DNA from: Betaproteobacteria bacterium RIFCSPLOWO2_12_FULL_62_58
GTDB taxonomy: Bacteria > Pseudomonadota > Gammaproteobacteria > Burkholderiales > SG8-41
Assembly: GCA_001772005.1 (NCBI GenBank)
Contig: MERI01000093.1
Location: 8,463 to 72,462 of the forward strand
Direction: 5' to 3'
Length of the DNA: 64,000 nucleotides
Part shown: piece by piece, positions 20,081 through 60,780 of the stretch
Layout of the letters: each line of letters starts with the position of its first letter
Numbering within the stretch: the stretch's first letter is position 1
The notes under the pieces: generated by a model
Database searches by the model: none
What the model saw: the letters and a program-made list of their open reading frames with translations, nothing else
What the model was told of the DNA's origin: nothing
Program-made: the position numbers and the translations under genes

Positions 20081-21151
20081 ATGTATTACAGCCATTTCGG
20101 GTTGAACCAGGCGCCGTTCAAGATCACGCCGAACACCGAATTCTTCTTCAGCGGCGGCAACCGCGGGCCGATACTGGAGGCGTTGATCTACACGATCACC
20201 CACGGCGAGGGCATCGTCAAGGTGACCGGCGAAGTGGGCAGCGGCAAGACCATGCTGTGCACCATGCTGCAGACGCGCCTGCCCCAGCATATCGAAACCG
20301 TCTACCTCGCCCATCCCAACGTCTCGCCCGAGGAAATTCTGCACGCGATCGCCTTCGAGCTGCAGCTTGGGCCAGCCCGCGGCGCGGCGCGGCTCGAGGT
20401 GATGCACTTGCTGCAGGACTATCTGCTCAAGCGTCACGCCGAAGGCAAGCGCGTGGTGGTGTTCGTCGAGGAGTCGCAGAGCATGCCGCTCGCGACCCTC
20501 GAGGAGATCCGGCTGCTGTCCAACCTCGAGACGCGCAACGACAAGCTGCTGCAGATCGTGCTGTTCGGCCAGCCCGAGCTCGATGACAATTTGCGCCGGC
20601 CCAACATCCGCCAACTGAGGGAGCGCATTGCCCACAGCTTCCGGCTCGAACCGCTCCATGCCGGGGAAATCCACGAATACGTGATGTTCCGCCTGCGCGC
20701 GGCCGGCTACCGCGGGCCGGACCTGTTCTCCGACGCAGTCATCAAGTACATCGCGCGCGCTTCGGCTGGGCTCACGCGCCGCGTCAACCTGATCGCCGAC
20801 AAGGCCTTGCTCGCGGCGTTTTCGGAGAACACCCATACCATCAAGTTGAAGCACGTCGAGGCGGCGGTGCGCGATAGCGAATTCAGCCAGCACCAAGCGC
20901 TGCGGGTAAAGCCGCAACTTGCATGGGGAGCGGCACTGGTGCTCGCGGGCGCAGCGATCGGCGTTGTCGTCTATGCGCTGATTCTGCACGGCGGCGGCAA
21001 TGACAGCCCGGCTGCTGCTGGAGCCAAGACGGCCCCGCTGCTGCTGGAGCCAAGACGGCCCCCGTTGCGCCTGACCAGCCAGCCGCGGCCGCCCGGCCTG
21101 CCACCGTTCCAGCCGTCGCCAAGGCGTCCCCTGCTGCCGGCACTGCAGTGA
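20081..21151 (+). CDS. ExeA/MshM-like AAA ATPase, 5' part of a split AAA-SPOR gene
   Basis: 356-residue reading: AAA ATPase with Walker A GEVGSGKT 50-57, Walker B VVVFVEES, then a TM helix (WGAALVLAGAAIGVVVYAL) about residue 285-303, then frame-shifted Pro/Arg-rich tail. Family members (GspA/ExeA, MshM) couple ATP hydrolysis to secretin or pilus assembly, with a periplasmic peptidoglycan-binding end. A 26-bp tandem duplication at 21011-21062 throws the frame out; with one copy removed the gene reads through into the SPOR domain as a 522-residue protein. Confidence 0.88.
   Translation: MYYSHFGLNQAPFKITPNTEFFFSGGNRGPILEALIYTITHGEGIVKVTGEVGSGKTMLCTMLQTRLPQHIETVYLAHPNVSPEEILHAIAFELQLGPARGAARLEVMHLLQDYLLKRHAEGKRVVVFVEESQSMPLATLEEIRLLSNLETRNDKLLQIVLFGQPELDDNLRRPNIRQLRERIAHSFRLEPLHAGEIHEYVMFRLRAAGYRGPDLFSDAVIKYIARASAGLTRRVNLIADKALLAAFSENTHTIKLKHVEAAVRDSEFSQHQALRVKPQLAWGAALVLAGAAIGVVVYALILHGGGNDSPAAAGAKTAPLLLEPRRPPLRLTSQPRPPGLPPFQPSPRRPLLPALQ
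21011..21062 (+). repeat. 26-bp perfect tandem duplication causing a frameshift
   Basis: gctgctgctggagccaagac plus ggcccc occurs at 21011-21036 and again at 21037-21062. 26 is not a multiple of 3. After the second copy the original frame would read AKTAPVAPDQPAAAARPATV, a normal Ala/Pro linker continuing into the next ORF; the frame in use reads LLLEPRRPPLRL and stops at 21149-21151. Confidence 0.95.
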
Positions 21152-21675
21152 GTAATGCCGAGACGAACAAGAAAAAACCTGTAATATCCGCCAAAGCTTC
21201 AGCGAGTGCGGTCGCGAACCCGTCCCAGGGCGCCAAGGCGGGCATGCCTGCGTCAACGCCGACTGCCGTTGCTGCCACGCCCGCGCCAAGCGCGGTTCCG
21301 ATGGGGAAACTCCCGCCCCGGCCGCCGGGTAACGAGCCGGGATTGGTGGAACAACGCCTTGCCGCCACCCAGGAATGGCTGGCCAACGCCGCCCAAACCA
21401 CATACAGTATTCAACTGATGGGCATCGATAATGAAGAACAGCTGAAGAACCATCTCGACGACATTGCGAAATTCGTTGAAGTGAACAGGGTTTTTTTGTA
21501 TCGTACCATTGCCAACCGCAAGGCGTCGCTCACGCTCTTGTACGGCAGTTTCAGCGACCGCCGCGCAGCGCAGGATGCGCTCGAGAAATTGTCTCCGTCG
21601 CTGAAGGCGAATCGACCGATTCTGCGCACCGTGCGAGGGATACGCACGGAACTCGAGCGGCACCGGAGTTCTTGA
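21148..21675 (+). CDS. SPOR-domain protein, 3' part of the split AAA-SPOR gene
   Basis: 175 residues from a GTG that overlaps the preceding TGA (GTGA). The first 60 residues are Ala/Pro/Lys linker. The C-terminal part TYSIQLMGIDNEEQLKNHL ... LTLLYGSFSDRRAAQDALEKL is a SPOR domain, which binds denuded septal or pilus-adjacent peptidoglycan. It has no signal or TM of its own, so as a separate product it would be cytoplasmic and probably useless; function needs fusion to the upstream AAA-TM part, by frameshift or duplication loss. Confidence 0.85.
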   Translation: MSNAETNKKKPVISAKASASAVANPSQGAKAGMPASTPTAVAATPAPSAVPMGKLPPRPPGNEPGLVEQRLAATQEWLANAAQTTYSIQLMGIDNEEQLKNHLDDIAKFVEVNRVFLYRTIANRKASLTLLYGSFSDRRAAQDALEKLSPSLKANRPILRTVRGIRTELERHRSS

Positions 21676-21742
21676 GCGACACGCCGCGGCAGAAAGTCTT
21701 GCTGAATCGCGCACATCGGCGGTTGAGCGGGGGAGAAGCGAG

Positions 21743-23665
21743 ATGATGCAAGCAGAGTCTGCGCCCGGTTGTGCGCCGGTCAGCACGGCATCGCCAGCGT
21801 TGGGCGACGCGAGCCCCGCTGCCGTTGAGCTTGGCAAGAATTCCGGGCTGGCCTGCGGTTTGATGCTGTCGCTGATGCTGGCGAGCTGCGCCGACATCCG
21901 TCCCTATGTCCCGCCTTCGGAAGGCCATATCGCTGCACCGCAGGTCAAGCCCGAACCGGAAAAGGCGATCCCGCCGCTGGCGCGGGTGAGCACGTTCGTG
22001 CCTCCGCCGCGGCCGGCGGTCAAGCCGCAGACCTACAGCGTCGTCGTCAATGAAGTGCCGGTGAAGGAATTGCTGCTGGCGCTCGGCCGCGACACCAAGC
22101 AGAACATCGACATCCATTCCGGTCTGCAAGGGCTGGTGAGCCTCAACGCGATCAACGAGACGCTGCCGGCGATCCTCGACCGTATCGCGAAGCAGGTCGA
22201 CATGCGTTACCGCGTCGAGGGTGGCACCATCATCGTTTCGCCTGACACGCCGTACATGAGGACCTACCGCATCAACTACGTGAACATGACGCGCGATACC
22301 ACTTCGACCATCGGCGTTTCGGGCGAGATCACCGCATCTGCGCCCGGGACAGGGGCTTCAGGCGGCGCGGCAGGTACGGCTCCCAGCGGCGCGACCAGCG
22401 GTTCCAGCATTGTGGTGCGCACGGTGTCCAAGAACGACTTCTGGGATGCGCTGCGCGAAAACATCCGCGCCATCCTCGCCTCCACCCGCGCACGCAGCCT
22501 GAGCGCGGAAGACAAGGCCGTGGCAGCCGAGGAGCGCAGGACGGCGCGCGAGCAAGCGCTCAAGCAGGCCGAGGCGGTGGCGCGGGCCGGGCAGGGAGCA
22601 ACCACATTGTTCAACACCGCCTTCCGCGGCCAGAGCCAGCAACAAGCGGGGGACGTGCGCGACGATATCATCATCAATGCGGTGAGCGGGACCGTCAGCG
22701 TGCTGGGCACCGAAAAGCAGCACCAGATCATCCAGCAGCATATCGACAGCATCACCGCCTCGGTTCAACGCCAGGTGCTGATCGAGGCGACCATCGTCGA
22801 GGTCACATTATCGGAAGGATACCAGGGCGGCATCGACTGGAGCCGGCTCGCGGTAGGCGGGGGCATTACGTTTGCGCAGGCACTGCTCGGCGGCTTCGGC
22901 GCGGCGGCCGTGGCAGCCGGCGCGACCGCCGGCAACGCCATCGCTATCGGCTATCAGAATCCGAGCTCGAGCGTCGGCAACATCAGCGTAACCATCAAGC
23001 TGCTGCAGGAGTTCGGCAACGTGAAAGTGTTGTCGAGTCCGAAGCTGATGGCGCTCAACAACCAGACGGCGCTGCTCAAGGTCGTCGACAACGTGGTCTA
23101 CTTCGAAATCCAGGCGCAGACTACCCAGAGTCAGACAACGGCGCTTACGACCTTCAACACTACGCCCAAGACTGTGTCGGTCGGTGTGGTGATGGGTGTG
23201 ACACCGCAGATTAACGACGATGGCCGCGTTCTGCTCACCGTGCGGCCGACGATTTCACGCGTGGTGAGATTCGTCAATGACCCCAACCCGACGCTGGCCA
23301 ATCCCTGCGGCTCGGACAAACCGTGCCCGGAAAGGGCCGTGGCCAGCCCGGTGCCCGAAGTGCAGACGCGCGAAATGGAATCAGTGCTGCAGGTCGGCAG
23401 CGGGCAGACCGTGATTCTCGGCGGACTGATGCAGGATGAGATCGCCCGAAGCCGCGAGCAATTGCCGGGCGCAGATCGGGCCGGCGTCGCGGGTGAAGCG
23501 CTGCGGTTCCGCAACGAGCGTGTCGCCAAAACCGAACTGGTGATCTTCCTGCGCCCCACCGTCATCGCCAACCCCTCGCTGGAAAGCGATGAACTGAAAT
23601 TCTTCCAGCGCTTCCTGCCGCAATCTGAGAAGCCACCTGTCGAGAACACCGGCGCTGCGCCATGA
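21743..23665 (+). CDS. mshL: MshL-like secretin of the MSHA-type pilus
   Basis: Outer-membrane secretin through which the pilus emerges. 640 residues. A lipobox LASC with Cys49 follows an unusually long, weakly charged N-region. STN/N0 domain about 100-180 (VPVKELLLALGRDTKQNIDI), an extended N1-type domain with an Ala/Arg-rich helical insert, and the C-terminal secretin domain with VLSSPKLMALNNQTALLKV and VILGGLMQDEI. ATG-ATG start follows gggagaag. The stop overlaps the next ATG (ATGA). Confidence 0.9.
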   Translation: MMQAESAPGCAPVSTASPALGDASPAAVELGKNSGLACGLMLSLMLASCADIRPYVPPSEGHIAAPQVKPEPEKAIPPLARVSTFVPPPRPAVKPQTYSVVVNEVPVKELLLALGRDTKQNIDIHSGLQGLVSLNAINETLPAILDRIAKQVDMRYRVEGGTIIVSPDTPYMRTYRINYVNMTRDTTSTIGVSGEITASAPGTGASGGAAGTAPSGATSGSSIVVRTVSKNDFWDALRENIRAILASTRARSLSAEDKAVAAEERRTAREQALKQAEAVARAGQGATTLFNTAFRGQSQQQAGDVRDDIIINAVSGTVSVLGTEKQHQIIQQHIDSITASVQRQVLIEATIVEVTLSEGYQGGIDWSRLAVGGGITFAQALLGGFGAAAVAAGATAGNAIAIGYQNPSSSVGNISVTIKLLQEFGNVKVLSSPKLMALNNQTALLKVVDNVVYFEIQAQTTQSQTTALTTFNTTPKTVSVGVVMGVTPQINDDGRVLLTVRPTISRVVRFVNDPNPTLANPCGSDKPCPERAVASPVPEVQTREMESVLQVGSGQTVILGGLMQDEIARSREQLPGADRAGVAGEALRFRNERVAKTELVIFLRPTVIANPSLESDELKFFQRFLPQSEKPPVENTGAAP

Positions 23666-24876
23666 GCCTGTTGATGAAGGCCTTGGAAAAGGCCGCCAAG
23701 GACCGGGGCGAGGTACAGACCGAGCACGCGGCGACTGCCGCCTCGACTCGGCCCAAGCCCGAACTATCGCTTGCGCTCGAGCTGCTGGCGGCGGACACGC
23801 CTTCTCCGCAGATGAAAGAGGAAGCCCCGCCCAAGCCGGGCCCCGGGCAACGTACGTCGGCCGCGGCGCCGTCACGCGAACAGGCGCGGGCTGCAAGCGT
23901 GATGCAAGCCGGGGGCCGGCCGGCTGGCGGCCTCGGCATCTATGTGCGCACCCATCCTCTGGTCGTCTTTGGCACGTTCGCCGCGCTGTTTGCGATCGGC
24001 TTCGGCACCTACGTCTACCTGCAGATCGTCCACCCCGCCGTGTTTATCCGTCAGACCCCGGCACCCAAACCACCGCTACCGCTCAGTCAGGCGCCGCCTC
24101 CGAGTCCCGTCGCGCCGCAACCGATCGCGACAGCTCCGCTGCTGCAGTCGACTGTGCCGGAAGCACCGCCGCAGCCGCCCGTGCGCGCCGCCGCACCCGC
24201 ACAGCAACCCGAACCGCCCGCGGCGTCGGTGTCGCAGAAGCCCGAACCCGGCTCGTCGCGAAACACCGTTGTCGTGAGCCGCGGCAACGCCGCGCCGCCG
24301 ACCGTCAACCCGCTGCTTACCGAAGCGTATACCGCGCTTCAGGCCGGCCGCCTGGACACCGCGCAGCGCTTATATGCCCAACTCGTACGCGCCGAACCGA
24401 AAAGCATCGACGCCTTGCTGGGTCTCGCCGCCATCTCGCTGCAGGAAGGGAAGACAGAGGATACCGCTCGATATTATCTGCAGATCCTCGAGCTCGACCC
24501 GCGGCACGCGCTTGCGCAATCAGGCCTGATCGGGCTCATGGGCCGGGCCGATCCACTCGCCGCGGAATCGCGCCTCAAGCAGCTGATCGCGCGCGAGCCC
24601 TCCGCGTTCCTGTATTTCACGCTCGGCAATCTGTACGCCGACCAGTCGCTGTGGGCCCCGGCCCAGCAGGCCTATTTCCAGGCCCATCACCTCGAGCCGA
24701 ACAACCCGGACTATGCCTATAACCTCGCCGTGGGCCTCGAACACTTGAGCCAGTCCCGTCTCGCGCTCGGCTTTTACCGCCGGGCCGTGCAACTTGCCAC
24801 CGCCCGCGGCCACGCCAACTTCAACCCTGCCCAGGCCCAGGAGCGCATCGGCAAACTCGCCACGCAGGTAGAATAG
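23662..24876 (+). CDS. mshN: MshN-like TPR protein
   Basis: 404 residues: cytoplasmic N-terminus MSLLMKALEKAAKDRG (typical of MshN/GspB-like proteins), TM helix about 97-118, long Pro-rich periplasmic linker 130-215, then about five TPR-like helical pairs (TEAYTALQAGRLDTAQRLYA onward). In MSHA systems MshN is an assembly component thought to bridge membranes. Overlaps mshL by 4 nt. Confidence 0.85.
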   Translation: MSLLMKALEKAAKDRGEVQTEHAATAASTRPKPELSLALELLAADTPSPQMKEEAPPKPGPGQRTSAAAPSREQARAASVMQAGGRPAGGLGIYVRTHPLVVFGTFAALFAIGFGTYVYLQIVHPAVFIRQTPAPKPPLPLSQAPPPSPVAPQPIATAPLLQSTVPEAPPQPPVRAAAPAQQPEPPAASVSQKPEPGSSRNTVVVSRGNAAPPTVNPLLTEAYTALQAGRLDTAQRLYAQLVRAEPKSIDALLGLAAISLQEGKTEDTARYYLQILELDPRHALAQSGLIGLMGRADPLAAESRLKQLIAREPSAFLYFTLGNLYADQSLWAPAQQAYFQAHHLEPNNPDYAYNLAVGLEHLSQSRLALGFYRRAVQLATARGHANFNPAQAQERIGKLATQVE

Positions 24877-24894
24877 TCGGCCAGGAAAGCTCCC

Positions 24895-26598
24895 ATGGCC
24901 GAACAGCGAAAAAAATTCCGGCTCGGCGATCTGCTCGTGCAGCAGGGACTGATCTCCACCGATCAGCTCGCGATCGCGCTCGCCGAGCAACGCAACAACA
25001 ATATCCCGATCGGGCGCCTGCTGGTGCGGCTCGGTTTCGTTACGGAAACCGCGATCCGCGACATCATGTCGCGCACCATTGGCCAGGAGTCGATCGATCT
25101 GACCCAGGTCGTCGCCGATTCCGAAGCATTGAAAATGGTGCCGCAGGAATTCGCGCGTCGCAACCGCCTGCTGCCGATCGCCTACGACCCCATGGAGCAG
25201 GTGCTGACGATCGCCACCGCGGAGATTTTCAACGTGGTGGCGATGGACCAGCTGCGCGCGATGCTCGGCGGGCAGATCGAGGTCAAGCCCCAGTTCGCGA
25301 GCGAGGACCAGCTCGAAACCTTTATCGACCAGTTCTACGGCTTCGAGCTGTCGGTCGACGGCATCCTGCACGAGATCGAGACCGGGGAAATCGATTACGA
25401 GAGCGTGCAGGCCGGCGGCGACGAATACACGCAGCCGATGGTGCGGCTGGTCAACGCGTTGCTGGTCGACGCGGTCAAGCGCGGCGCCTCCGACATCCAC
25501 TTCGAGCCCGAGTACGCGTTCCTGCGCATCCGCTTCCGCATCGACGGGGTCCTGGAAACGGTGAGGAGCCTGCACAAGACCTACATGCCGGGCATCACGG
25601 TGCGGCTTAAAGTGGTGAGCGACATGAACATCGCCGAAACGCGCGCGCCACAGGACGGGCGGCTGTCGCTGACGTTGAGCGGCCGGCAGATCGATTTCCG
25701 GGTTTCGACCCAACCCACGATCTACGGCGAGAACATCGTGTTGCGCATACTCGATCGCGAAAAATCGATCATCAGCCTCGATCGCATGAACCTGGCCGCG
25801 GAAACGCTCGCGAAACTCAACCTCATGCTGGCGCGCCCCGAAGGCATCCTGATCGTGACCGGCCCCACCGGCAGCGGCAAGACCACCACGCTCTACTCGC
25901 TGCTGGCGCAGGTCAACGACGAAACGGTCAACATCATGACGCTCGAAGATCCCGTCGAGTATCCGTTGACGCTGATGCGGCAGACTTCGGTCAATGAAGT
26001 CGCGCGCATGGACTTCGCCAACGGCATCCGCTCCATCATGCGCCAGGACCCGGACATCATCCTGGTCGGAGAAGTACGCGACAAGGAAACCGCGGAAATG
26101 GCGTTTCGCGCGGCAATGACCGGCCACCAGGTGTTCACCACGCTGCACACCAACTCCGCGCTCGGCGCCTTCCCGCGGCTTCTGGACATCGGCATCCAGC
26201 CCGACATCATGGCCGGCAACATCATCGGCGTCATCGCCCAGCGCCTGGTGCGCGTGCTCTGCCCGCACTGCAAGGAGGCCTACGCGCCGTCCGCGGAGGA
26301 ACGTCTGCTGCTCGGGCGTGCCGCGGAATCGGTGTCGTATCTGTACCGGCCGGTCGGCTGCAAACAGTGCGAGAACAAGGGATACAGGGGCCGCGCCGCG
26401 ATCATGGAACTGCTGGTGATGGACAGCGACCTCGACGAATTGGTGGCCCGCCGCGCGACGGTCAAGGACTTGCGCGCTGCGGCGATGGCGAGAAACTTCC
26501 GCCCACTGGCGAACGAAGGGCTCCAACGCGTTGTCGATGGCACCACCAGCCTCGCCGAAGTCTCGCGCGCGGTGGACCTCACCGGACGGTATGGTTAA
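24895..26598 (+). CDS. mshE: MshE-like pilus assembly ATPase with c-di-GMP-binding MshEN domain
   Basis: Hexameric motor ATPase for pilus extension, cytoplasmic. 567 residues. The N-terminus carries a full 24-residue MshEN motif, R9-L-G ... G18 ... L25 ... L29 ... Q32, and a second diverged copy from I39. This domain binds cyclic di-GMP in characterised MshE proteins. Then GspE core: Walker A GPTGSGKTTT, Asp box, Walker B VGEVRDKETAE, and the zinc-type CPHC...CKQC module. All catalytic parts are present. Confidence 0.92.
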   Translation: MAEQRKKFRLGDLLVQQGLISTDQLAIALAEQRNNNIPIGRLLVRLGFVTETAIRDIMSRTIGQESIDLTQVVADSEALKMVPQEFARRNRLLPIAYDPMEQVLTIATAEIFNVVAMDQLRAMLGGQIEVKPQFASEDQLETFIDQFYGFELSVDGILHEIETGEIDYESVQAGGDEYTQPMVRLVNALLVDAVKRGASDIHFEPEYAFLRIRFRIDGVLETVRSLHKTYMPGITVRLKVVSDMNIAETRAPQDGRLSLTLSGRQIDFRVSTQPTIYGENIVLRILDREKSIISLDRMNLAAETLAKLNLMLARPEGILIVTGPTGSGKTTTLYSLLAQVNDETVNIMTLEDPVEYPLTLMRQTSVNEVARMDFANGIRSIMRQDPDIILVGEVRDKETAEMAFRAAMTGHQVFTTLHTNSALGAFPRLLDIGIQPDIMAGNIIGVIAQRLVRVLCPHCKEAYAPSAEERLLLGRAAESVSYLYRPVGCKQCENKGYRGRAAIMELLVMDSDLDELVARRATVKDLRAAAMARNFRPLANEGLQRVVDGTTSLAEVSRAVDLTGRYG

Positions 26599-26603
26599 CG
26601 CGA

Positions 26604-26687
26604 AATGATGAACGATGAATGATGAGTGCAGAATGAAAATCCTGCCGTTTACCATTCACCGTTCCGCATTCATCATTCCGCATTGAT
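26604..26687. repeat. Paired heptamer arms between mshE and mshG
   Basis: Left run aaatgatgaacgatgaatg (26605 on) and right run ccattcaccgttccgcattc (26652 on) are imperfect reverse complements. They separate genes otherwise expected to be contiguous. Confidence 0.85.
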
Positions 26688-26696
26688 TTCGACGCT

Positions 26697-27905
26697 GTGG
26701 CAACCTTTCAGTACAAAGCCGTAGACAAAGCGGGGCGTCCGGCGCGTGGTGCGGTGGACGCCGCCAACGAAGGCGATCTTGAGTTGCGTCTGCGGCGCAT
26801 GGGACTCGACCTCATCACCTACAAGCAGGTCGACGAGAAAAACTCCTCCTTCGCCGCCGGCGGCAAGATCACGCGCCAGGACCTGATCAACTTCTGTTTC
26901 GACATGGAACAGATGAATCGATCGGGCATCCCGCTGATCGACGGCCTGCGCGACCTGCGCGACACGGTCGACAGCCCGCGCTTTCGCGAAGTGCTCACGG
27001 TAATGACCGAAGATATGGAGGGCGGCAAGGTCATGTCCCAGTGCCTGGCGGCCCATCCGGAAGTGTTCGACAACGTGTTCGTGAGCCTCGTCAAGGCCGG
27101 GGAGCAAACCGGCCGCATGGCCGAAGTGTTCGAAAACCTCGTTTCCTCGCTCAAGTGGCAGGACGAGCTTGTCTCGCAGACCAAGCGGTTGCTGATCTAC
27201 CCCGCGATGGTGCTGGTCGTCGTCATCGCCGTCGTCGTGTTTTTGCTGGTGTTTCTGGTGCCGCAGGTGGTCAGCTTGCTCAAGACCATGGGCATTGCGC
27301 TGCCGGTTCAGACCAAGGTGCTGATCTTTGCCTCGAACGTCGTAATCGCTTACTGGCCGATCGTTTTCGGCGCCCCGGCGCTGGCGGCAATCGTTCTAGT
27401 ATTCGTGGTCAGGCGCAATCCCGCGGTCGCCTACCTGTGGGACTACACCAAACTGCACCTTCCCCTCACCGGGCCCATCCTGCAGAAGATCATTCTGGCG
27501 CGCTTTGCAAATTTCTTCGCACTGATGTACCAGTCCGGCATCACGGTGCTGGACGCGATCAGGACCGGCGAGGAAATCGTCGGCAATCGCGTGTTGGCCG
27601 ACGGCCTCATGCGCGCCGGTCAGCAGATCTCGGCGGGCGAGAGCCTCACCGAAGCATTCCGGAACCTCGGCCTGTTCCCGCCGCTGGTGATCCGCATGCT
27701 GCACGTGGGCGAGAACACCGGCGCGCTCGACACCGCGCTGAATAACATCAATTACTTCTACACCCGCGACGTGCGCGAATCCGTGGACAAGGCACTGAAG
27801 CTGCTTGAACCGAGCCTGACGCTCGGCCTGGGCATGGTGCTGGCGCTGATCATGTGGTCGGTGCTGTCACCGGTGTATGATATTTTGGGCAAGTTGAAGT
27901 TCTAG
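26697..27905 (+). CDS. mshG: MshG-like inner-membrane platform protein
   Basis: GspF/PilC-type polytopic platform that couples the ATPase to pilin polymerisation. 402 residues, starting at GTG 26697 (reads VATFQYKAVDKAGRPARG). Two GspF repeats: first with GIPLIDGLRDLRDTVDSPRF, second with SGITVLDAIRTGEEIVGN, each followed by hydrophobic helices; the C-terminal GLGMVLALIMWSVLSPVYD is the usual ending. Confidence 0.92.
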   Translation: MATFQYKAVDKAGRPARGAVDAANEGDLELRLRRMGLDLITYKQVDEKNSSFAAGGKITRQDLINFCFDMEQMNRSGIPLIDGLRDLRDTVDSPRFREVLTVMTEDMEGGKVMSQCLAAHPEVFDNVFVSLVKAGEQTGRMAEVFENLVSSLKWQDELVSQTKRLLIYPAMVLVVVIAVVVFLLVFLVPQVVSLLKTMGIALPVQTKVLIFASNVVIAYWPIVFGAPALAAIVLVFVVRRNPAVAYLWDYTKLHLPLTGPILQKIILARFANFFALMYQSGITVLDAIRTGEEIVGNRVLADGLMRAGQQISAGESLTEAFRNLGLFPPLVIRMLHVGENTGALDTALNNINYFYTRDVRESVDKALKLLEPSLTLGLGMVLALIMWSVLSPVYDILGKLKF

Positions 27906-51207: not shown

Positions 51208-52239
51208 TCACAGGCTCGCGAGGATGCGCTTGACCGGCGTAGGCACAGCCGCGGATTTTGCCTCCTCGATGGTCAACCAGACATGGCCGGGCTCGGCGGC
51301 ACGCGGCGCGAGCCGCACGACACGCAGGCGCTGTGGCCGGATGCTGAGCCGGAAGTGTGTGAATCCGTGCTCGAGCACCGGCAGCGATTGCGCTGCCCCC
51401 ACGCTTGCGCCGAAACGCTGCGCGCAGATCTTTCCTACGTCGTCATCCGGCGCCGCTTCCGGGAAACACCATAGCCCGCCCCAGATGCCCGCAGCGGGCC
51501 GTTTTTCGAGCAGGACCTCCCCTGCATGCTGCAACACCAGCATCACGGTTTGCCGGTGCGGCAAAGCCTTCTTCGGTCTGGGCGCGGGAATCCGCCCGGT
51601 CAGCCCTCTGCCGTGGGCGACGCAGCCGGTGGCGAGCGGGCAGGATGAGCAGCGCGGCTGCCGCCGCGTGCAGACGGCGGCGCCCAAGTCCATCAGCCCC
51701 TGCGTGTAGGCCGCGACGTGCTGCTTCGGCAGCAGCGATTCGGCCTTGCGCCACAGCGACTCCTCGACGCGTTTGTCGCCGGGATAACCGCGAACGCCGT
51801 AATAGCGCGTCAGCACGCGCTTCACGTTGCCATCGAGAATCGCGCGCCGTTCGCCGAAGGCAAAGGCACAGATCGCGGCCGCGGTCGAGCGCCCGATTCC
51901 CGGCAGCGCGACGACGTCGTTGAAACGCGGCGGGAATTTTCCACCGTGCTCACCGCGGATGATCCGCGCGGCGCGGTGCAGGTTGCGCGCGCGCGAGTAG
52001 TAGCCGAGCCCGCTCCACAACGTGAGCACTTCGTCGAGCGGCGCTTGCGCGAGGGATTCAACGCTCGGAAAGCGCGCGAGCAAACGCCGGTAGTACGGGA
52101 TCACGGTCGCGACCTGGGTCTGCTGCAACATGACTTCCGACACCCAGATCGGATACGGGTCGCGCGTGCCCTGCCACGGCAGATCGTGCCGCCCGTGGCG
52201 CTTCTGCCAGGCGATCAGCTTAGCCGCGAAACTAGGCAT
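51208..52239 (-). CDS. mutY: MutY, A/G-specific adenine DNA glycosylase
   Basis: Removes adenine opposite 8-oxoguanine. 343 residues. Catalytic Glu E35 in WVSEVMLQQTQV, helix-hairpin-helix LPGIGRSTAAAI with the Asp in ILDGNVKR, and 4Fe-4S cysteines C-x6-C-x2-C-x5-C in CTRRQPRCSSCPLATGC; the C-terminal NUDIX-like domain (LLEKRPAAGIWGGLWCFPE) reads 8-oxoG. Convergent-free: it shares the minus strand with the AsmA gene upstream, separated by a heptamer array. Confidence 0.96.
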   Translation of the reverse strand: MPSFAAKLIAWQKRHGRHDLPWQGTRDPYPIWVSEVMLQQTQVATVIPYYRRLLARFPSVESLAQAPLDEVLTLWSGLGYYSRARNLHRAARIIRGEHGGKFPPRFNDVVALPGIGRSTAAAICAFAFGERRAILDGNVKRVLTRYYGVRGYPGDKRVEESLWRKAESLLPKQHVAAYTQGLMDLGAAVCTRRQPRCSSCPLATGCVAHGRGLTGRIPAPRPKKALPHRQTVMLVLQHAGEVLLEKRPAAGIWGGLWCFPEAAPDDDVGKICAQRFGASVGAAQSLPVLEHGFTHFRLSIRPQRLRVVRLAPRAAEPGHVWLTIEEAKSAAVPTPVKRILASL

Positions 52240-52242
52240 GCT

Positions 52243-52339
52243 TGGTTATGGGTTATGGGTAATGAGTAATTGGCAATGCGTAAAGGCAAAATCTTGTATT
52301 CACTCATCACCCATCACCCATCACCGATCACGCATCACC
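52243..52339. repeat. Paired gggttat / catcacc heptamer arms between asmA-like and mutY
   Basis: Left run ggttatgggttatgggtaat (52244-52263) and right run catcacccatcacccatcac (52304-52323) continuing to 52339. The right arm encodes the last residues (VMRDR) and the TGA of the AsmA-like gene. Confidence 0.92.
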
Positions 52340-53847
52340 CCGAGCTTGCCCTTCACCGCTTGCTCGACTTTCTGCTTGGTGACGTCGATCCTCACATTCG
52401 ACGCTTTGAGATTCGCCGCCTTGAGGGAACCGATCTTGATGCTGCCGGTCGCGTTAAGGCCCTTGAGCGCCGAAAAATCGAATGGCTGTTCGGGCTTGGC
52501 CTTGGGATCGGTTTTCGGCAGGTAACGGTCGGCGTCGAGTTGGTCGATGTTGATGTCGAACGTGTAAAACGGCGGTGTAAACTTCGCGAGTCCCGCTCTG
52601 CCGCTGATGTTGCTGTCATCGAACCTGGTCGCGAAGGTGAGGCTGGCGGTCTGTTTGGCAAAATCGGCCTGGGCAGCGCCGTTGATCGTTGCGGCGATCC
52701 GGTTCTTGGGCAGCTTTGGATTATTGACATTAACTGTCGCCACGAGCTTGGCGAGCTCGATGCGCTCCATCTCGACGCTGCCGGCGAGCGGGCTCGTGAT
52801 TTTCGCTTTGACCGTCACCCCCTCCTGCTGCATGTCGAGGTTCGCAGTCATCTGCCCGGCCTGGAACGCTTTGGCCGTGCCCTCGATTGCCGGAATTTCG
52901 ACTTTGGCGGTGAGCTTGCTCTTCGCCTCGCTCATCGCGGCGTCGAGCGTGATCCTGTCGCCGCTCACCTTGTCCTTGGTGATGTTGAGCTTGGGCAGCG
53001 CGAACTTGACGTTGAGATCGCCGCCCGCCTGTTTACCCGTCACCGCGACCGCAAGCTTCGACGCCGAGAATTCCTTGGTCGCGGGCCGGGCATCGACGTC
53101 GCCTTTGGCGCTCACCACCAGGTTGCTGAAGCCGGCGGCAGTGCCTTTGGCGTTCAAATCGAGCCCGTCCAGCACGTAGCGCTGCTTCTCGAGATCGAAA
53201 GTAAGCCGCGTCTTGAGCGCGGTCTCGAGGTCGAGCCTGGGCGTGTCGCTGTGCGCGGCGAACGCGAGTTCGACGTTCGTCGGCACGCCGCTGGCGATAC
53301 GGCCGGTCTTGAGATTGACTTTGGACAGCGCGTATTTTGCGCCGGCCGACTGATCGGTGAACGTGAGCGCCGAGTTTTCAATCAGCACATGGTCAATGTC
53401 GATCATGAACTGCGCTTCCGCGCCCCTGGGGGCGGGCGCCGCTTTGCCCCCGCCTCCCGCCAGATCGTCGACGTTGGTCTTGCCGTCCTTGAAGCGCACG
53501 ATGTCCGCGCGCAGGTTCTTGACTTCGACCGCGTCGACCACCACCCGCCTGGAGAGCAGCGGCAGCAGCTTCACCGCGATGCGCATTTCCTCAAGGCCGG
53601 CGAACTCCTTATCGCTCGCGCGCTCCGACAGCGTCGCTTTCCCCATCCGCCCGCCGACGCTTGGAAAGAGGGAGAGCTTGATCTCGCCGTCGAGCTTGAG
53701 GGTGCGCTGCGTCTTGTCCTTGACCGCCCGCACGATCTGCGGCTTGTACTGGTTGGGGTCGAACGTCGCCGCCGCATAGGCCAGCACTGCGCCGATTACC
53801 ACGATCAGGCCACCCACTGCAAACAGCGCGTACTTGAAAATTTTCAT
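52321..53847 (-). CDS. AsmA-like protein, apparently short at the C-terminus
   Basis: 508 residues: TM anchor FKYALFAVGGLIVVIGAVLA, then the AsmA N-terminal beta-taco repeats (FDPNQYKPQIVRAVKDKTQR, LKLDGEIKLSLFPSVG). AsmA-family proteins sit in the inner membrane and are implicated in envelope lipid traffic. Many relatives run to 600-750 residues with a further C-terminal AsmA domain; here the protein ends soon after LKASNVRIDV, and its last five residues come from a repeat array. A deletion or truncation is likely but cannot be proven without relatives. Confidence 0.75.
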   Translation of the reverse strand: MKIFKYALFAVGGLIVVIGAVLAYAAATFDPNQYKPQIVRAVKDKTQRTLKLDGEIKLSLFPSVGGRMGKATLSERASDKEFAGLEEMRIAVKLLPLLSRRVVVDAVEVKNLRADIVRFKDGKTNVDDLAGGGGKAAPAPRGAEAQFMIDIDHVLIENSALTFTDQSAGAKYALSKVNLKTGRIASGVPTNVELAFAAHSDTPRLDLETALKTRLTFDLEKQRYVLDGLDLNAKGTAAGFSNLVVSAKGDVDARPATKEFSASKLAVAVTGKQAGGDLNVKFALPKLNITKDKVSGDRITLDAAMSEAKSKLTAKVEIPAIEGTAKAFQAGQMTANLDMQQEGVTVKAKITSPLAGSVEMERIELAKLVATVNVNNPKLPKNRIAATINGAAQADFAKQTASLTFATRFDDSNISGRAGLAKFTPPFYTFDINIDQLDADRYLPKTDPKAKPEQPFDFSALKGLNATGSIKIGSLKAANLKASNVRIDVTKQKVEQAVKGKLGVMRDR

Positions 53848-53886: not shown

Positions 53887-56265
53887 TCAGGTCGCCGCCG
53901 CGCGCACCTCGTGTATGTCGGTATAGCCGGCAAGGCATTTTTCGATGCCGTCCTGCTTCAGGGTGCGCATGCCGCCGCGGATCGCCGCCGCCCGCAGTTC
54001 GCTCGCTGTCGCCCGTTGCTGCATTATCTGCCGCATCCCGGGCGTGGCGACCAGCAACTCGTGGAGGCCGATTCTGCCGCGGTATCCGGTCTTGCGGCAT
54101 TCACTGCAACCGATCGCTTCATAAATCATCAATGACCCGCCGAAATCCCGTTTCCACTCCGCGATCACGTCGGCCGGCTTGATCTCCGTGTCGTAGCAGT
54201 ACTCCTCGGCAAGGGCGCTCACTTCCTGGTCGGCGGCAAGCCGGTTGGTGCGGCATTTGGCGCACAGCCTCCAAGCCAGGCGCTGCGCGAGCACGCCAAG
54301 CAGGGAATCGGTAAAACTGAAGGGGTCTATCCCCATATCGAGGAGGCGCACGACAGTCTCCGGCGCGCTGTTGGTGTGCAGCGTGGAGAAGACGAGGTGC
54401 CCGGTAAGGGACGCCTCGACCGCGATGCCCGCGGTCTCCTGATCGCGCATTTCGCCGACCATGATCACGTCGGGATCCGCGCGCAAAAAAGCTCGCATCA
54501 CCGTTGCGAAATCCCAGCCTATCCTCGAGTTGACCTGCACCTGCCTCAGTCCCGGCTGGGTAATCTCGACAGGGTTTTCGGCAGTCCAGATCTTGATCCC
54601 GGGCACATTGAGAACGCTGATGAGTGAGTGCAGCGTGGTGGTCTTTCCAGACCCGGTGGGACCGACCGCAAGAATGAGGCCGTGCGGCTTTTCCAGAAGC
54701 TGCTTGATCGCGCTCAGCACCGATTCGCGCAGGCCCAGTTTGGTTATGGGCAGCGGCTCGCCCATCGTGAGCAGGCGCATCACCACATCTTCCAGACCGT
54801 CCTGGGTGGGCACGGTCACGACGCGCAGCTCCACTTTCGCAGGCCCGAAACGCTGGAAATTGATGCGGCCATCCTGCGCGCGCCGATGCTCCGAGATATC
54901 GAGGTCGGCCATGATCTTGAGCCGGGAAACGGTCGCGCTTCGAAAATTATGGGGCAACCGCAGATATTCGGAGAGCACGCCATCCTTGCGGAACCGGATC
55001 ACCACGCCCGTCTTCCCGGGGTTGGCTTCGACGTGAATGTCCGAGGCGCCGGCGGAGTGTGCATCGACAATTATCTTGTTAACCAGCCTCACAAGCGTGT
55101 TGTCGGTTTCTTTGATCGCCTCCTCCCTTGACTCCGCCTCGGGATGGATCTCGGCGCGCAACTGCTCTGCGATCTCCTCCACCCCATGCTCGCCGGACGT
55201 GGCGCCGTAGTAAGTCGTGATGGCCTGATAGATATCCTCGATGGTCGCCATCACCGGCGTCACTTGCACCTGGGCGTAGAAGCGGACACGCTCTATCGGC
55301 TCCGGGTCGAGTGGATTGATCATCGCCAGCACCAGCGTTCCCTCGTCGTAGCACAGCGGCACCACATGGCATTTCCGCACCAGCTCGTCCGGCAGCACTT
55401 TGAGCACCGCCGGATCGATATCGAACCTGGTAAGGTCTACGAACGGGATGCCCAGCTTCTGAGACAGCACATGGTACAGCTGCTCCCTCGAAAGGTAACC
55501 AAGGTCGAGCAGGATCTCCCCGAGCGGCTTCTTGCGATTTTTGCCCTGTAATTCGAGCGCCACGTCGAGCTGCACCCGGGTAATCAGGCTCAACTCAATC
55601 AGTGCGTCACCGAGCTTGATCGCCGGCATCGCGCGCTCCCGTTCGAGCGCCGCGTGCAACTGCTCGTGCGAGATCACCTTGTGCTCAGCGAGAAGCTCGC
55701 CGAGCTTCTGCTCCCGCAACTCCTTCTGCCTCCCCAGGCCTTTCCCGACCTCGCTGCTGGTAAGGATTTTCTGCTCGATCAGGGTCTCGCCGATCAGCGG
55801 GCCGATCTGCTCTCTCTTGATCGAACTCGCCGGGATGAAAGTCCGGATCACGGCATCGTAGGAGTTAACCACGAACAGGAACAGGCCGGACTCCTGCATG
55901 TCGAAGCCGGTGGTTTCCGCCGCCAGCACGTTGCCGTTCACAAATTCCACCCGGAACGATTGTTTCTCCGATGGCTTGACCACCTGCCCGCGCCGCTCGA
56001 TCTCGTTCATCTCCGTCCGCGGCCGGAGCACCAGCGGCCGGTTCAGCCGCAGCTGTTCGATGTCGGTAAGCTGGACGCTGATATTGGCCCGCTCCTTCTT
56101 CGGCACGAACTCCACCACGCCATGCGAAGGCAGGAAGCGGGTAAGGAGTCCTTCAAGCTTCCGCCCGTCCAGAAAATGCAGCACCGCCGGCTCGTGCTGG
56201 TCGATTTCGCCCGCGGTGACCGCCTCGTAGTAATGTGGAATAGGCCACTGGAAGTTGCTATACAT
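53887..56265 (-). CDS. GspE/PilB-family ATPase with four tandem MshEN-type motifs
   Basis: 792 residues. N-terminal 140 residues form a novel-looking or PilZ-like beta domain (AVLHFLDGRKLEGLLTRFLP). Then four 24-residue motifs of the MshEN class repeat with exact 30-residue spacing: 157-180, 187-210, 217-240, 247-270. The motor core has Walker A GPTGSGKTTT, Walker B VGEMRDQETAG and cysteine pairs CAKC and CSEC. It stands alone, with no platform, pilin or secretin adjacent, so its machine is elsewhere or it acts with the locus at 20081-37130. Confidence 0.88.
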   Translation of the reverse strand: MYSNFQWPIPHYYEAVTAGEIDQHEPAVLHFLDGRKLEGLLTRFLPSHGVVEFVPKKERANISVQLTDIEQLRLNRPLVLRPRTEMNEIERRGQVVKPSEKQSFRVEFVNGNVLAAETTGFDMQESGLFLFVVNSYDAVIRTFIPASSIKREQIGPLIGETLIEQKILTSSEVGKGLGRQKELREQKLGELLAEHKVISHEQLHAALERERAMPAIKLGDALIELSLITRVQLDVALELQGKNRKKPLGEILLDLGYLSREQLYHVLSQKLGIPFVDLTRFDIDPAVLKVLPDELVRKCHVVPLCYDEGTLVLAMINPLDPEPIERVRFYAQVQVTPVMATIEDIYQAITTYYGATSGEHGVEEIAEQLRAEIHPEAESREEAIKETDNTLVRLVNKIIVDAHSAGASDIHVEANPGKTGVVIRFRKDGVLSEYLRLPHNFRSATVSRLKIMADLDISEHRRAQDGRINFQRFGPAKVELRVVTVPTQDGLEDVVMRLLTMGEPLPITKLGLRESVLSAIKQLLEKPHGLILAVGPTGSGKTTTLHSLISVLNVPGIKIWTAENPVEITQPGLRQVQVNSRIGWDFATVMRAFLRADPDVIMVGEMRDQETAGIAVEASLTGHLVFSTLHTNSAPETVVRLLDMGIDPFSFTDSLLGVLAQRLAWRLCAKCRTNRLAADQEVSALAEEYCYDTEIKPADVIAEWKRDFGGSLMIYEAIGCSECRKTGYRGRIGLHELLVATPGMRQIMQQRATASELRAAAIRGGMRTLKQDGIEKCLAGYTDIHEVRAAAT

Positions 56266-56733: not shown

Positions 56734-58035
56734 ATGTTTCACCCTGACTTCAAAACCCGTAAACCCGGCACCGGCGCTGCGCTATTCGCCGCCACGCTGT
56801 TCGCGCTCGCCACGCCCGGGGCCCACGCACAACAGCAACCGTCAGCTCAACCGGCGCAACCGGCGGCGGCGCCGAAACCGCAGGCGGAGCAGAAACCCCC
56901 GCCGCCGTCCTGGCAGCAAGGGCGCACTCCGGAACAGGCGAGTTCGACCTTGCACCCGTTCGCGATTCACGTGACCGGCAAGGCCGCGAAGGAATTGCCG
57001 GTGGACAAGCTCAAGGTCCCGGCCGGCTTCAAGGTCGAAGTCTGGGCCGAGGGCATCCCCGCGGCGCGTTCCCTCGCGCTCGGCGACAAGGGCACGGTAT
57101 TCGTAGGCACCCGCCAGGCGAAGGACGTGTATGCGGTCGTTGACCGCGGCGGCAAGCGCGAGGTGAAGACCATACTCAAGGGTCTCGATACGCCAAACGG
57201 GGTCGTCTTCAGCAAGGGCACGCTTTACGTCGCCGAGCGCCACCGCATCACGCGCTACGACGGCATCGAAGACAAGCTCGACAGCCCGCCCGAAGCCAAG
57301 GTCGTGATCGACGGCCTCGACCCGAGCAAGCAGCCCGGCCACTTCTGGAAGTTCCTCGCGCTGGGCCCGGACGGCAAGCTCTATTTCAACATCGGCGCGC
57401 CCGGCAACATCGTGATGCCGAACTACATGCAGGGCTCCATCATGCGCGTGGATCCCGTCAAGGGCGTGCTCGAGAACGTGGTGCTTGGCGTGCGCAACTC
57501 GGTCGGTTTCGACTGGCATCCCAAGACCAAGGAGCTGTGGTTCACCAACCACGGCCGCGACTGGCTGGGCGACGATTCACCGAACGACACGCTGCACCGG
57601 GTTGCGAAGACAGGCGTTCATTTCGGCTACCCCTTCTGCCACCAGGGCGACACGCTCGACCCCGAGTACGGCAAGAACCGCTCCTGCTCCGAGTTCACGC
57701 CGCCGGCGTTGAAACTCGGCGCCCACGTCGCGCCCATCGGCATGCGGTTTTACACCGGCAAGATGTTCCCGGCCGAGTACCGGGACAACATCTTCATCGC
57801 CTTGCGCGGCTCGTGGAATCGCACCGTCAAGCAGGGTTACAACGTCACGCGCGTGAGCTTTGACAAGGGCAAGCCGAAGATGGAGCCGTTCCTGAGGGGT
57901 TTCCTCCAGGACCCCAAGGCGGATCCTCCGATGTGGGGCCGGCCGGCGGATGTGCTGGTGATGCGCGACGGCTCGCTGCTCGTCTCGGATGACCACAACG
58001 GGATCATCTACCGCGTCAGCTACGGCAAGAAGTGA
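56734..58035 (+). CDS. PQQ-dependent sugar dehydrogenase-like protein (beta-propeller)
   Basis: 433 residues with signal peptide ending GAHA|QQQ, a Pro/Ala-rich linker, then a six-bladed propeller of the soluble glucose / L-sorbosone dehydrogenase family: VPAGFKVEVWAEGIPAARSLA, KVVIDGLD, GPDGKLYFNIGAPGN, VGFDWHPKTKELWFTNHGRD. Probably periplasmic, oxidising a sugar or aldehyde using PQQ. Strong aaggagg site before ATG 56734. Stop overlaps the diheme cytochrome gene by 4 nt (GTGA), strongly suggesting the cytochrome is its electron acceptor. Confidence 0.85.
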   Translation: MFHPDFKTRKPGTGAALFAATLFALATPGAHAQQQPSAQPAQPAAAPKPQAEQKPPPPSWQQGRTPEQASSTLHPFAIHVTGKAAKELPVDKLKVPAGFKVEVWAEGIPAARSLALGDKGTVFVGTRQAKDVYAVVDRGGKREVKTILKGLDTPNGVVFSKGTLYVAERHRITRYDGIEDKLDSPPEAKVVIDGLDPSKQPGHFWKFLALGPDGKLYFNIGAPGNIVMPNYMQGSIMRVDPVKGVLENVVLGVRNSVGFDWHPKTKELWFTNHGRDWLGDDSPNDTLHRVAKTGVHFGYPFCHQGDTLDPEYGKNRSCSEFTPPALKLGAHVAPIGMRFYTGKMFPAEYRDNIFIALRGSWNRTVKQGYNVTRVSFDKGKPKMEPFLRGFLQDPKADPPMWGRPADVLVMRDGSLLVSDDHNGIIYRVSYGKK

Positions 58036-58625
58036 ACGGTAGTCGCGGCAACAGCGGCGCGGCGGCGATGTTTGCCGCCGCGGTTCTTTTTTTGTTCGCC
58101 TGCGCCGCGCTTGCTGCCGATGGCATCCCCCGGAAAGCGGCGTCCTGCATCATCTGTCACGGCGCTGGCGGAAATTCGACCGACCCGGCGATGCCGTCCC
58201 TGGCCGGGCAGCCGGCGCAGTTCATTTCCACGCAGCTCTATCTGTTCCGCGAAGGCAACCGCAAGGACGCGCAAATGACGCCGATAGCCTCCGGCCTCTC
58301 GAACGCCGACATGAACGAGCTCGCGGCGTATTTCTCCAGCCAGAAACCGGCAGCCCCGTCGCGCAAGACCGCCCCGGAAAACGCCGCCGCCGGGCGGCGC
58401 CTTGCCGAACAGCATCACTGCGTGCAATGCCATGGCCCCGCGCTGCTCGGCCTGCAACACATTCCGCGCCTTGCCGGCCAGCAGTTCGCCTATTTGAAAA
58501 CGCAGTTGCGCGGGTTCAAGGCCGGCATCCGCTACGACACCGATGGCAACATGACGTCGGCCGTCCAGAGGCTGTCGGAGGCGGACATCGAAGTGCTGGC
58601 GGACTATCTCGCTGGCTTGAAATAA
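58032..58625 (+). CDS. Diheme cytochrome c (c4-like)
   Basis: 197 residues from GTG 58032. Signal peptide (FAAAVLFLFACAALAADG), then two class I domains with heme motifs CIICH and CVQCH and Met ligands in MPSLAG-type and NMTSAVQRLS stretches. Periplasmic electron carrier, presumably for the overlapping PQQ-type dehydrogenase, passing electrons to the respiratory chain. Confidence 0.9.
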   Translation: MNGSRGNSGAAAMFAAAVLFLFACAALAADGIPRKAASCIICHGAGGNSTDPAMPSLAGQPAQFISTQLYLFREGNRKDAQMTPIASGLSNADMNELAAYFSSQKPAAPSRKTAPENAAAGRRLAEQHHCVQCHGPALLGLQHIPRLAGQQFAYLKTQLRGFKAGIRYDTDGNMTSAVQRLSEADIEVLADYLAGLK

Positions 58626-58644
58626 CCCCCGCACGCGGACCCCT

Positions 58645-60780
58645 GTGCATCCTGCTGCTTCGATATCCGTTTTGTCCGGCTGCGTGCTGGCGGCGCTTGC
58701 GAATGGCGTAATCGCGCAGCAACCGCCCCAACCCGTGGCCGTGCAAGCGCCGGCCGCGCCACCCGCGCTGCTGCCGGAAGTCACGGTAAGCGCGACGCGC
58801 GTCGAGCACGACAGTTTCGACCTGCCGGTGTCGATCGACAGCATCAGCCGGCGCGCGATCCGCGGGGACAATCCGCAGGTCAACCTGTCGGAAGCGCTCA
58901 ACCGCGTGCCGGGCGTCGTCGCGCAGAACCGCCAGAATTACGCGCAGGACCTGCAGATCTCCTCGCGCGGCTTCGGCGCGCGCTCGACTTTTGGCGTGCG
59001 CGGCATCCGCCTGATCGCCGACGGCATCCCCGCCACCATGCCCGACGGGCAGGGCCAGGCCGCCTCTTTCAACCTCTCCTCGGCGCAGCGCATCGAAGTG
59101 CTGCGCGGGCCGTTTTCGAGTCTCTACGGCAACGCCGCGGGCGGCGTGATCCAGATCTTTACCGCCGACGGACCACCCGAGCCGACGCTTACCGGGAGCG
59201 CGTACGCCGGCAGCTACGACACGACGAAATTCGGCGTTCAGTTCGGCGGGCGACACGGGCCGATCAATTACCTGGCCGACGCCTCACGCTTCCAGACCGG
59301 GGGCTACCGCGACCACAGCGCGGCACGCCGCGACCAGCTCAACGCCAAGCTCAAGTTCGATGCCGGCGCGCACGGCGCCCTCACCCTCGTAGTCAACGCG
59401 CTCGACCAGCCGGAAACCCAGGACCCGCTGGGCCTCACCGCCGCCCAGGTCGCGCAGAACCCGCGCCAGGCCGGCGCCAACGCGCTTGCCTTCAATACCC
59501 GCAAGAGCATCGCGCAGAGCCAGGCCGGCCTCGTCTATGACCTCCAGCTCTCCACACGCGATGAACTCCAGGCACGCGTGTACTTCGGCGACCGCCAGGT
59601 CACGCAGTTTCTCGCGATTCCGCTCCCCGTCCAGAACGCGCCAACCTCCTCAGGCGGGGTGGTCGATCTCGATCGCGGCTACGGCGGCGCCGGCGTGCGG
59701 CTCACGCGCATCACCTCGTTCGCCGACGGGCCGCTCACCCTGAGCGTCGGTCTCGATTATGACCGCATGAGCGAGCGCCGCAACGGCTTTATCAACAATT
59801 TCGGCGTCGCCGCCGGCGTGAAGCGCGACGAAGACGACACCGTCAGCAATACCGACCTCTATGTGCAAGTGGAATGGCAGCCCGCGCCACGCTGGATCGC
59901 CTCAGCCGGCGTGCGCCACAGCCGCGTGCGCTTCGACTCGCGGGACTACTTCATTGCGCCGGGCAACCCCAACGACAGCGGGGCGGTCGATTTCGTGAGA
60001 ACCACGCCAGTGGCGGGCGTCGTGTTCAAGCTTGCCCCCACGATGAACCTGTACGGCAATTTCGGCAAAGGCTTCGAGACACCGACGTTCGCCGAGCTCG
60101 CCTATCGGCCGGGCGGTGCGACCGGGCTCAACTTCGCCCTGAAGCCGGCCAACAGCCTGCATCGCGAGATCGGCATTAAAACGCTGCTCGGCGCAGCGAG
60201 CCGGCTCAATATCGCGCTGTTCCGCATCGACGTCAAAGACGAAATTGTGGTTAACACCTCGATCGGTGGGCGCACCGATTTCAAGAACGCGGCGCAAACC
60301 CAGCGCGAAGGCCTGGAACTCGCGTGGGAGGGCCGCTTTGCACATGGCTTCGAGGCCGCGCTCGCTTACACCCTGCTCGATGCGCGCTTCACGCAACCGT
60401 TTGCGAGCGGCACGCCGCCGGCCACCGTGCCGGCGGGCAACAAGCTGCCGGGCGTGCCGCCGACGAACCTGTTCGGCGAGATCGTGTGGCGCCATCAGGC
60501 AAGCGGCTTCCACACCGGCGCCGAACTGCGCCACACCGGCAAGGTCTACGTCAACGACGCCAACAGCGGGTCCGCAGCGGCCTACACCGTGTGGAACCTG
60601 CGTGCCGGCTTCGAACAGCGCGGGAAAAGCTGGCGCGTGAGCGAGTTCCTGCGCATCGACAATGTCGCCGGCCGACGCTATGTCGGCTCGGTGATCGTCG
60701 CTGAAGCCAACGGCCGCTACTACGAACCTGCGCCTGAGCGCAATTTCCTGCTCGGGGTCAGCGCCGAACTCAAGTTTTGA
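58645..60780 (+). CDS. TonB-dependent outer-membrane receptor
   Basis: 711 residues from GTG 58645. Signal peptide, short Pro-rich region, then plug domain: LPEVTVSATRVEHDSFDLPV with the TonB-box-like ETVSAT variant, EALNRVPGVVAQNRQNYAQD and IEVLRGPFSSLYGNAAGGVI. A 22-strand barrel follows, ending in ELKF with terminal Phe. Just 19 bp after the cytochrome gene, so perhaps co-expressed; the ligand may be a substrate or cofactor (PQQ or a metal) for the dehydrogenase, but this is only inference from position. Confidence 0.9.
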   Translation: MHPAASISVLSGCVLAALANGVIAQQPPQPVAVQAPAAPPALLPEVTVSATRVEHDSFDLPVSIDSISRRAIRGDNPQVNLSEALNRVPGVVAQNRQNYAQDLQISSRGFGARSTFGVRGIRLIADGIPATMPDGQGQAASFNLSSAQRIEVLRGPFSSLYGNAAGGVIQIFTADGPPEPTLTGSAYAGSYDTTKFGVQFGGRHGPINYLADASRFQTGGYRDHSAARRDQLNAKLKFDAGAHGALTLVVNALDQPETQDPLGLTAAQVAQNPRQAGANALAFNTRKSIAQSQAGLVYDLQLSTRDELQARVYFGDRQVTQFLAIPLPVQNAPTSSGGVVDLDRGYGGAGVRLTRITSFADGPLTLSVGLDYDRMSERRNGFINNFGVAAGVKRDEDDTVSNTDLYVQVEWQPAPRWIASAGVRHSRVRFDSRDYFIAPGNPNDSGAVDFVRTTPVAGVVFKLAPTMNLYGNFGKGFETPTFAELAYRPGGATGLNFALKPANSLHREIGIKTLLGAASRLNIALFRIDVKDEIVVNTSIGGRTDFKNAAQTQREGLELAWEGRFAHGFEAALAYTLLDARFTQPFASGTPPATVPAGNKLPGVPPTNLFGEIVWRHQASGFHTGAELRHTGKVYVNDANSGSAAAYTVWNLRAGFEQRGKSWRVSEFLRIDNVAGRRYVGSVIVAEANGRYYEPAPERNFLLGVSAELKF

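Follow-up and report, generated by a model that had tools for sequence, protein, structure and literature searches.

An orphan extension-type motor ATPase with four MshEN-type motifs and its clade in Beta- and Gammaproteobacteria

The motor gene and its surroundings

The window, i.e., the entire 64,000-nucleotide stretch of DNA analysed here, derives from a draft genome with 6% contamination and carries a gene for a 792-residue protein (Table 1). This protein possesses the features of the PilB/GspE-type extension ATPase superfamily (PF00437), namely a T2SSE domain, a Walker A motif, a catalytic Glu, a His box (at residue 621) and a tetracysteine whose CxxC pairs are located at residues 668 and 720, together with an Asp box at residue 561. 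The PF00437 match and these signatures bear out the first-pass annotation, in which the motor-ATPase identity, open reading frame, strand and coordinates were all correct. Based on its catalytic signatures, the protein is predicted to be a catalytically competent extension motor of the hexameric type.

As had also been noted, no pilus genes adjoin the motor, the neighbours being an AsmA-family gene, a MutY-type gene and a divergently oriented sorbosone-dehydrogenase-like gene. The last of these lies in a row with a cytochrome c gene and a gene for a TonB-dependent receptor (56734-60780). A conserved operon with AsmA and MutY was rejected, since this linkage is absent in relatives of the motor, whose neighbours vary by lineage.

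Table 1. Features of the motor gene, its protein product and the surrounding window.
Feature	Residues	Position in window	Strand	Basis or remark
GspE/PilB-superfamily motor ATPase	792 aa	53887..56265	-	Single ORF, Pfam and NCBIfam
N-terminal half-domain 1, weakly Sm/LSM-like	22-84	56014..56202	-	DUF6982/LSM/EDC3 profile matches
N-terminal half-domain 2, similar to half 1	98-156	55798..55974	-	hhalign P 1.4e-6
Motif M1 LIGETLIEQKILTSSEVGKGLGRQ	157-180	55726..55797	-	Gln24 kept; Q24 in 61/62
Motif M2 KLGELLAEHKVISHEQLHAALERE	187-210	55636..55707	-	Gln24 replaced by Glu; Gln in 56/62 relatives
Motif M3 KLGDALIELSLITRVQLDVALELQ	217-240	55546..55617	-	Contact residues intact; Q24 in 62/62
Motif M4 PLGEILLDLGYLSREQLYHVLSQK	247-270	55456..55527	-	Lys24 in 60/62 members
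MshEN C-terminal alpha/beta subdomain	271-357	55195..55455	-	Pfam PF05157, E 4.6e-19
T2SSE ATPase domain	386-787	53905..55110	-	Pfam PF00437, E 1.1e-109
Walker A GPTGSGKT	535-542	54640..54663	-	
Walker B/catalytic Glu DPDVIMVGEMRD	597-608	54442..54477	-	
Zinc tetracysteine, 56-residue span	668-723	54097..54264	-	Enlarged vs PilB/TfpB/MshE/GspE
AsmA-family gene		52321..53847	-	39 bp downstream of motor, likely same transcript
MutY-type glycosylase gene (HhH-GPD + NUDIX)		51208..52239	-	Next downstream
MSHA-type pilus genes (MshM-like AAA, MshL secretin, TPR, MshE, MshG)		20081..27905	+	Separate system, own motor, possible partner

The N-terminal region and the four MshEN-type motifs

The separate, beta-rich N-terminal domain that the first-pass annotation had placed ahead of the motifs was recovered as two tandem halves with weak matches to DUF6982, LSM and Hfq. 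The DUF6982 score of the window protein is 18.2 bits, below the curated Pfam cut-off of 24.5, while in a 60-row family alignment weak matches at E<=0.1 were obtained to DUF6982 in 30/60 rows, to LSM in 11/60 and to Hfq in five. The top PDB matches of the N-terminal profile are EDC3 LSM domains, at approximately 5e-5 (EDC3 4.6e-5), and our best guess is that this region folds as a tandem Sm-like (SH3-like) barrel. A literature search retrieved no paper mentioning DUF6982.

The four MshEN-type motifs, designated M1 to M4, start at residues 157, 187, 217 and 247, i.e., at the spacing of exactly 30 residues that had been reported for them. A loose motif pattern matches these four sites alone in the protein, and 20,000 shuffles of the 792 residues returned a mean of 0.13 matches and a maximum of four, on which basis a chance origin of the four repeats was rejected. 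The NCBIfam c-di-GMP motif model NF053729, a 53-residue two-motif model with a cut-off of 38 bits, matched two stretches of the protein well above that threshold (E 2e-20, 72.2 bits). The published relaxed c-di-GMP motif fits M3 and M4 alone in this protein, M1 and M2 failing to match.

Each MshE motif contacts one half of c-di-GMP through R1, L2, G3, L17, L21 and Q24 (PMC5013675); R, K and L are all permitted at the first position (PMC11731258). M4 of the window protein carries Pro1 and Lys24, and since Gln24 is also replaced in M2, no adjacent motif pair is Gln-complete; likewise, there is no adjacent pair in which both motifs keep L2, G3, L17, L21 and Gln24. In the GSPII-B domain of PilF, single Q-to-E changes lower the affinity from 6 nM to 460-950 nM, while the double change abolishes binding (PMC11731258). 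As one Gln is replaced in every adjacent pair of the window protein, weakened c-di-GMP binding is to be expected, and this member is predicted from its sequence to bind the ligand weakly, if at all.

Relatives and distribution

A paralogue of the same layout (828 aa) is encoded on contig 98 of the same genome (L001:2601-5087), where it adjoins an MHYT-PAS-GGDEF-EAL gene; in this paralogue the Gln of M2 is retained. Within the order, 20 of 300 genomes gave matches to residues 1-280, some of them partial. When 84,980 species genomes were scanned with a 5-row seed alignment, 80 loci were recovered in Beta- and Gammaproteobacteria, one record bearing the label Opitutaceae. The loci include isolates of Methylovorus, Collimonas, Massilia and Methylotenera. 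Merging yielded 91 distinct loci, of which 62 are non-redundant at 80%. The description of the motor as an orphan thus stands in that pilus-gene neighbours are absent from nearly all 91 related loci, although the paralogue and the family show that it is not one of a kind or isolated.

The closest relative, at 62% over the N-terminal region, is L049 (CAMDLH010000283.1), from a metagenome bin labelled Bordetella parapertussis, a label that is probably wrong; the M2 of L049 carries Leu at position 24. At another locus, L043:7107-11009, the frame of the four-motif motor stays open for some 480 residues further upstream, giving a 1300-aa ORF; the extension has no Pfam match and may be an artefact of an upstream start site.

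Genes encoding GGDEF or EAL domains are enriched close to the motor, representing 12 of 323 neighbours at a distance of at most two genes, that of the paralogue among them, vs 4 of 672 at greater distance (Fisher p 5e-4), where neighbours are longest-ORF picks with pattern tags and the loci are not phylogenetically independent.

Conservation and pairing of the motifs

Residues were counted in the 62 family members, non-redundant at 80%, drawn from 91 distinct aligned sequences. The 30/30/30 spacing is found in 54/62 members, M1 and M2 being 30 residues apart in 61/62 and M3 and M4 in all 62, while the M2-M3 linker differs by one residue in seven. Such near-confinement of length variation to the M2-M3 linker is as expected, at the level of sequence, of two rigid pairs with a looser joint. 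The four motifs would thus form two four-helix bundles, M1+M2 and M3+M4, amounting to a duplicated MshEN_N module.

While each of the four motifs keeps L2, G3, L17 and L21 in 60-61 of 62 members, Gln24 is distributed unevenly: it is near-invariant in M1 and M3, frequent in M2 (Table 1) and retained in the M4 of a single member, M4 having Lys instead in 60/62. Consequently, M1+M2 is Gln-complete in 55/62 members, as is M2+M3, compared to 1/62 for M3+M4, which occupies the MshE-like position. The altered pair is therefore the one at the position of the MshE site, and the better candidate site lies in the added repeats. Most relatives are accordingly predicted to possess at least one c-di-GMP site; Methylovorus mays and Collimonas provide examples of Gln-complete relatives.

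It may alternatively be argued that the region of the four motifs serves chiefly as a structural spacer or as a stator-docking module, c-di-GMP binding having been lost in the window protein and perhaps family-wide in M3+M4. M4 is in keeping with this, as it has R, K or L at position 1 in only 3/62 members in addition to lacking Gln24, and so are M1 and M2, which never match the published relaxed motif anywhere in the family; furthermore, c-di-GMP binding is known to be lacking in the Thermus PilF GSPII-A domain and in XpsE (PMC12002112, PMC5013675). However, the retention of Gln24 in M1, M3 and mostly M2 is hard to explain without a ligand, and PilF GSPII-B with a single Q-to-E change still bound at 460-950 nM (PMC11731258), so that we consider this explanation somewhat unlikely. 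We favour a motor whose output would be tuned by c-di-GMP bound in the duplicated MshEN_N module.

A separate clade of motor ATPases

In a maximum-likelihood tree (IQ-TREE) of 61 ATPase domains, all sampled four-motif motors form one clade with a GAF-domain type of motor (support 100/100), apart from PilB, TfpB, MshE and GspE; the sister position of this clade to PilB is weak (84/83). The zinc CxxC pairs span 55-69 residues in the clade vs 21-42 residues in the other classes where measurable. The established classes were rejected for the window motor individually: it scores 512 bits against canonical PilB (TIGR02538, cut-off 675.65) and has no pilC nearby, it reaches 391 bits against TfpB (NF053534, cut-off 850), which forms a separate clade, it lies outside both the MSHA operon and the MshE clade, and it falls outside the GspE clade. 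Pseudomonas aeruginosa PA3740 was also set aside as an assayed member, since, judging from the residue numbers published for its motif (55-62; PMC5013675), it probably has an MshEN with two motifs at its N-terminus.

The GAF-domain motor of the same genome, on contig 75, and its relatives share the enlarged zinc loop and the orphan status of the four-motif type, but a GAF domain replaces the N-terminal domain and the motifs, and the MshEN_N region of this type is devoid of c-di-GMP contact residues. That both types belong to one clade suggests that the motor was kept while the sensory front end was exchanged. On contig 75 (L003:4506-11591), the motor gene lies between genes for a CHASE2-adenylate/guanylate cyclase and for a GAF-HD phosphohydrolase (HD-GYP-like), the group possibly constituting a second-messenger-controlled motor cluster.

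A literature search, which included GAF-type and tandem-MshEN PilB proteins, found no paper describing the four-motif motor class. What is new is the clade of motors itself, along with its putatively Sm-like N-terminus and the uneven conservation between the two motif pairs.

Candidate partner pili

The genome encodes six extension-type motors vs three platform proteins, the latter being of PilC type (contig 168), GspF type (contig 59) and MshG type (contig 93). Among the motors, that of contig 255 is TfpB (904.7 bits), that of contig 59 is GspE, and the window encodes an MshE. No motor in this genome exceeds the PilB cut-off, and no PilB is found beside PilC: the contig 168 locus (L029:6454-8735) comprises pilC-pilD without pilB upstream. 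The TfpB orthologue (L002:6754-8562, minus strand) adjoins an ammonium-transporter-like gene in this genome without canonical PilB. PilB above the curated cut-off is likewise absent in the related genomes G131, G263, G169, G293, G046, G115, G190 and G002; in two of these, G115 and G190, every motor other than the four-motif type and its GAF relative has its own platform. Canonical PilB was, on the other hand, detected in 17 of 19 further carrier genomes, indicating that the four-motif motor is usually an extra.

The motor would drive pilin polymerisation via a platform protein encoded elsewhere, most likely PilC of the type IVa pilus and less likely MshG of the MSHA pilus, and may serve as an accessory motor for extension or as an alternative one, by analogy with TfpB of Acinetobacter. 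Since type IVa pilus genes are near-universal in the order, their co-presence in carriers is weak evidence of partnership; PilM is uninformative for the same reason, and PF07655 is too unspecific to mark MSHA.

A role as second motor of the MSHA-type pilus, in partnership with MshG and in addition to MshE, is suggested by the MSHA cluster some 28 kb from the motor in the window and by seven gammaproteobacterial loci in which MshM/MshL-type genes lie approximately 1-6 kb downstream on the same strand; in that gammaproteobacterial lineage, the location of the motor favours MSHA as a possible partner. Nevertheless, MSHA clusters have their own MshE (that of the window, at 24895-26598, accompanied by a platform protein), and, among the other betaproteobacterial carriers that were checked, the MSHA genes sit on different contigs or more than 500 kb away. 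Furthermore, no MshL match at 1e-40 was obtained in carriers G426, G428 and G429 (two Collimonas and one Lysobacteraceae carrier, with PilB and with MshL undetected), by which MSHA is ruled out as universal partner; the type IVa pilus could be one. We therefore regard the MSHA role as unlikely overall. The second c-di-GMP motif of the window MshE is itself imperfect, with Pro at position 1 and no Gln24, as in several betaproteobacterial MshE relatives.

With moderate confidence, we interpret the protein as an extension motor of an undescribed orphan clade that is accessory to a type IV pilus and tuned by c-di-GMP, binding probably being weakened in this particular member.

Comparison with known systems and significance

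In Thermus thermophilus PilF, likewise an extension ATPase, repeated MshEN-type motifs stand ahead of the motor part, and the GSPII-C domain, with three motifs, aligns with M2-M3-M4 and the C-subdomain of the window protein. However, PilF is the main pilus motor, and in it whole GSPII domains are repeated, each with a C-subdomain, whereas in the window protein the helical half only is duplicated and is preceded by a putative DUF6982/Sm-like domain. Vibrio cholerae MshE shares the 24-residue motifs, the C-subdomain and the ATPase superfamily, but has two motifs 29 residues apart at its N-terminus vs four, 30 apart, after a 156-residue domain in the window protein, whose M4 lacks Gln24 and whose ATPase lies outside the MshE clade. 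(MshEN_N)2 tandems and fusions of MshEN to many domains were noted by Wang et al. 2016 (PMC5013675). Acinetobacter TfpB, an orphan PilB-like motor additional to PilB, provides the precedent for an accessory motor and our working analogy for the role (PMC8213720), notwithstanding its separate clade and the NF053534 score of the window protein, 391 against a cut-off of 850.

The first-pass annotation had proposed that four motifs could give two sites or a cooperative sensor; this is plausible for the family, where M1 and M2 both carry Gln in 55/62 members, and is weakened for the window protein by Glu in M2 and Lys in M4. Two cooperative sites acting as a threshold sensor would accord with the maintenance of four motifs across the family and the constant 30-residue spacing within M1-M2 and M3-M4, yet are very unlikely given that M3+M4 is not Gln-complete in 61/62 members and that PilF, with three GSPII domains, one of them with three motifs, bound two c-di-GMP with affinities that speak against extensive cooperativity (PMC11731258).

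More broadly, it is possible, and we propose it tentatively, that this distinct clade of orphan motors, beside or instead of PilB, keeps the enlarged-zinc-loop motor while its sensory front end is exchangeable, being either tandem Sm-like halves with two c-di-GMP bundles or a GAF domain, and that members with intact M1+M2 and altered M3+M4 read c-di-GMP via the added bundle, the bundle at the MshE position being used otherwise. Correspondingly, the working c-di-GMP site is predicted to be formed, in most members, by the added motif pair and not by that at the MshE position. The clade is conserved in Beta- and Gammaproteobacteria and lies outside the curated motor families tested. Some bacteria have a surplus of pilus extension motors over platforms that awaits explanation (PMC11656802); orphan motors whose sensory domains can be exchanged, and through which second messengers would control a pilus machine already in place, are a candidate answer.
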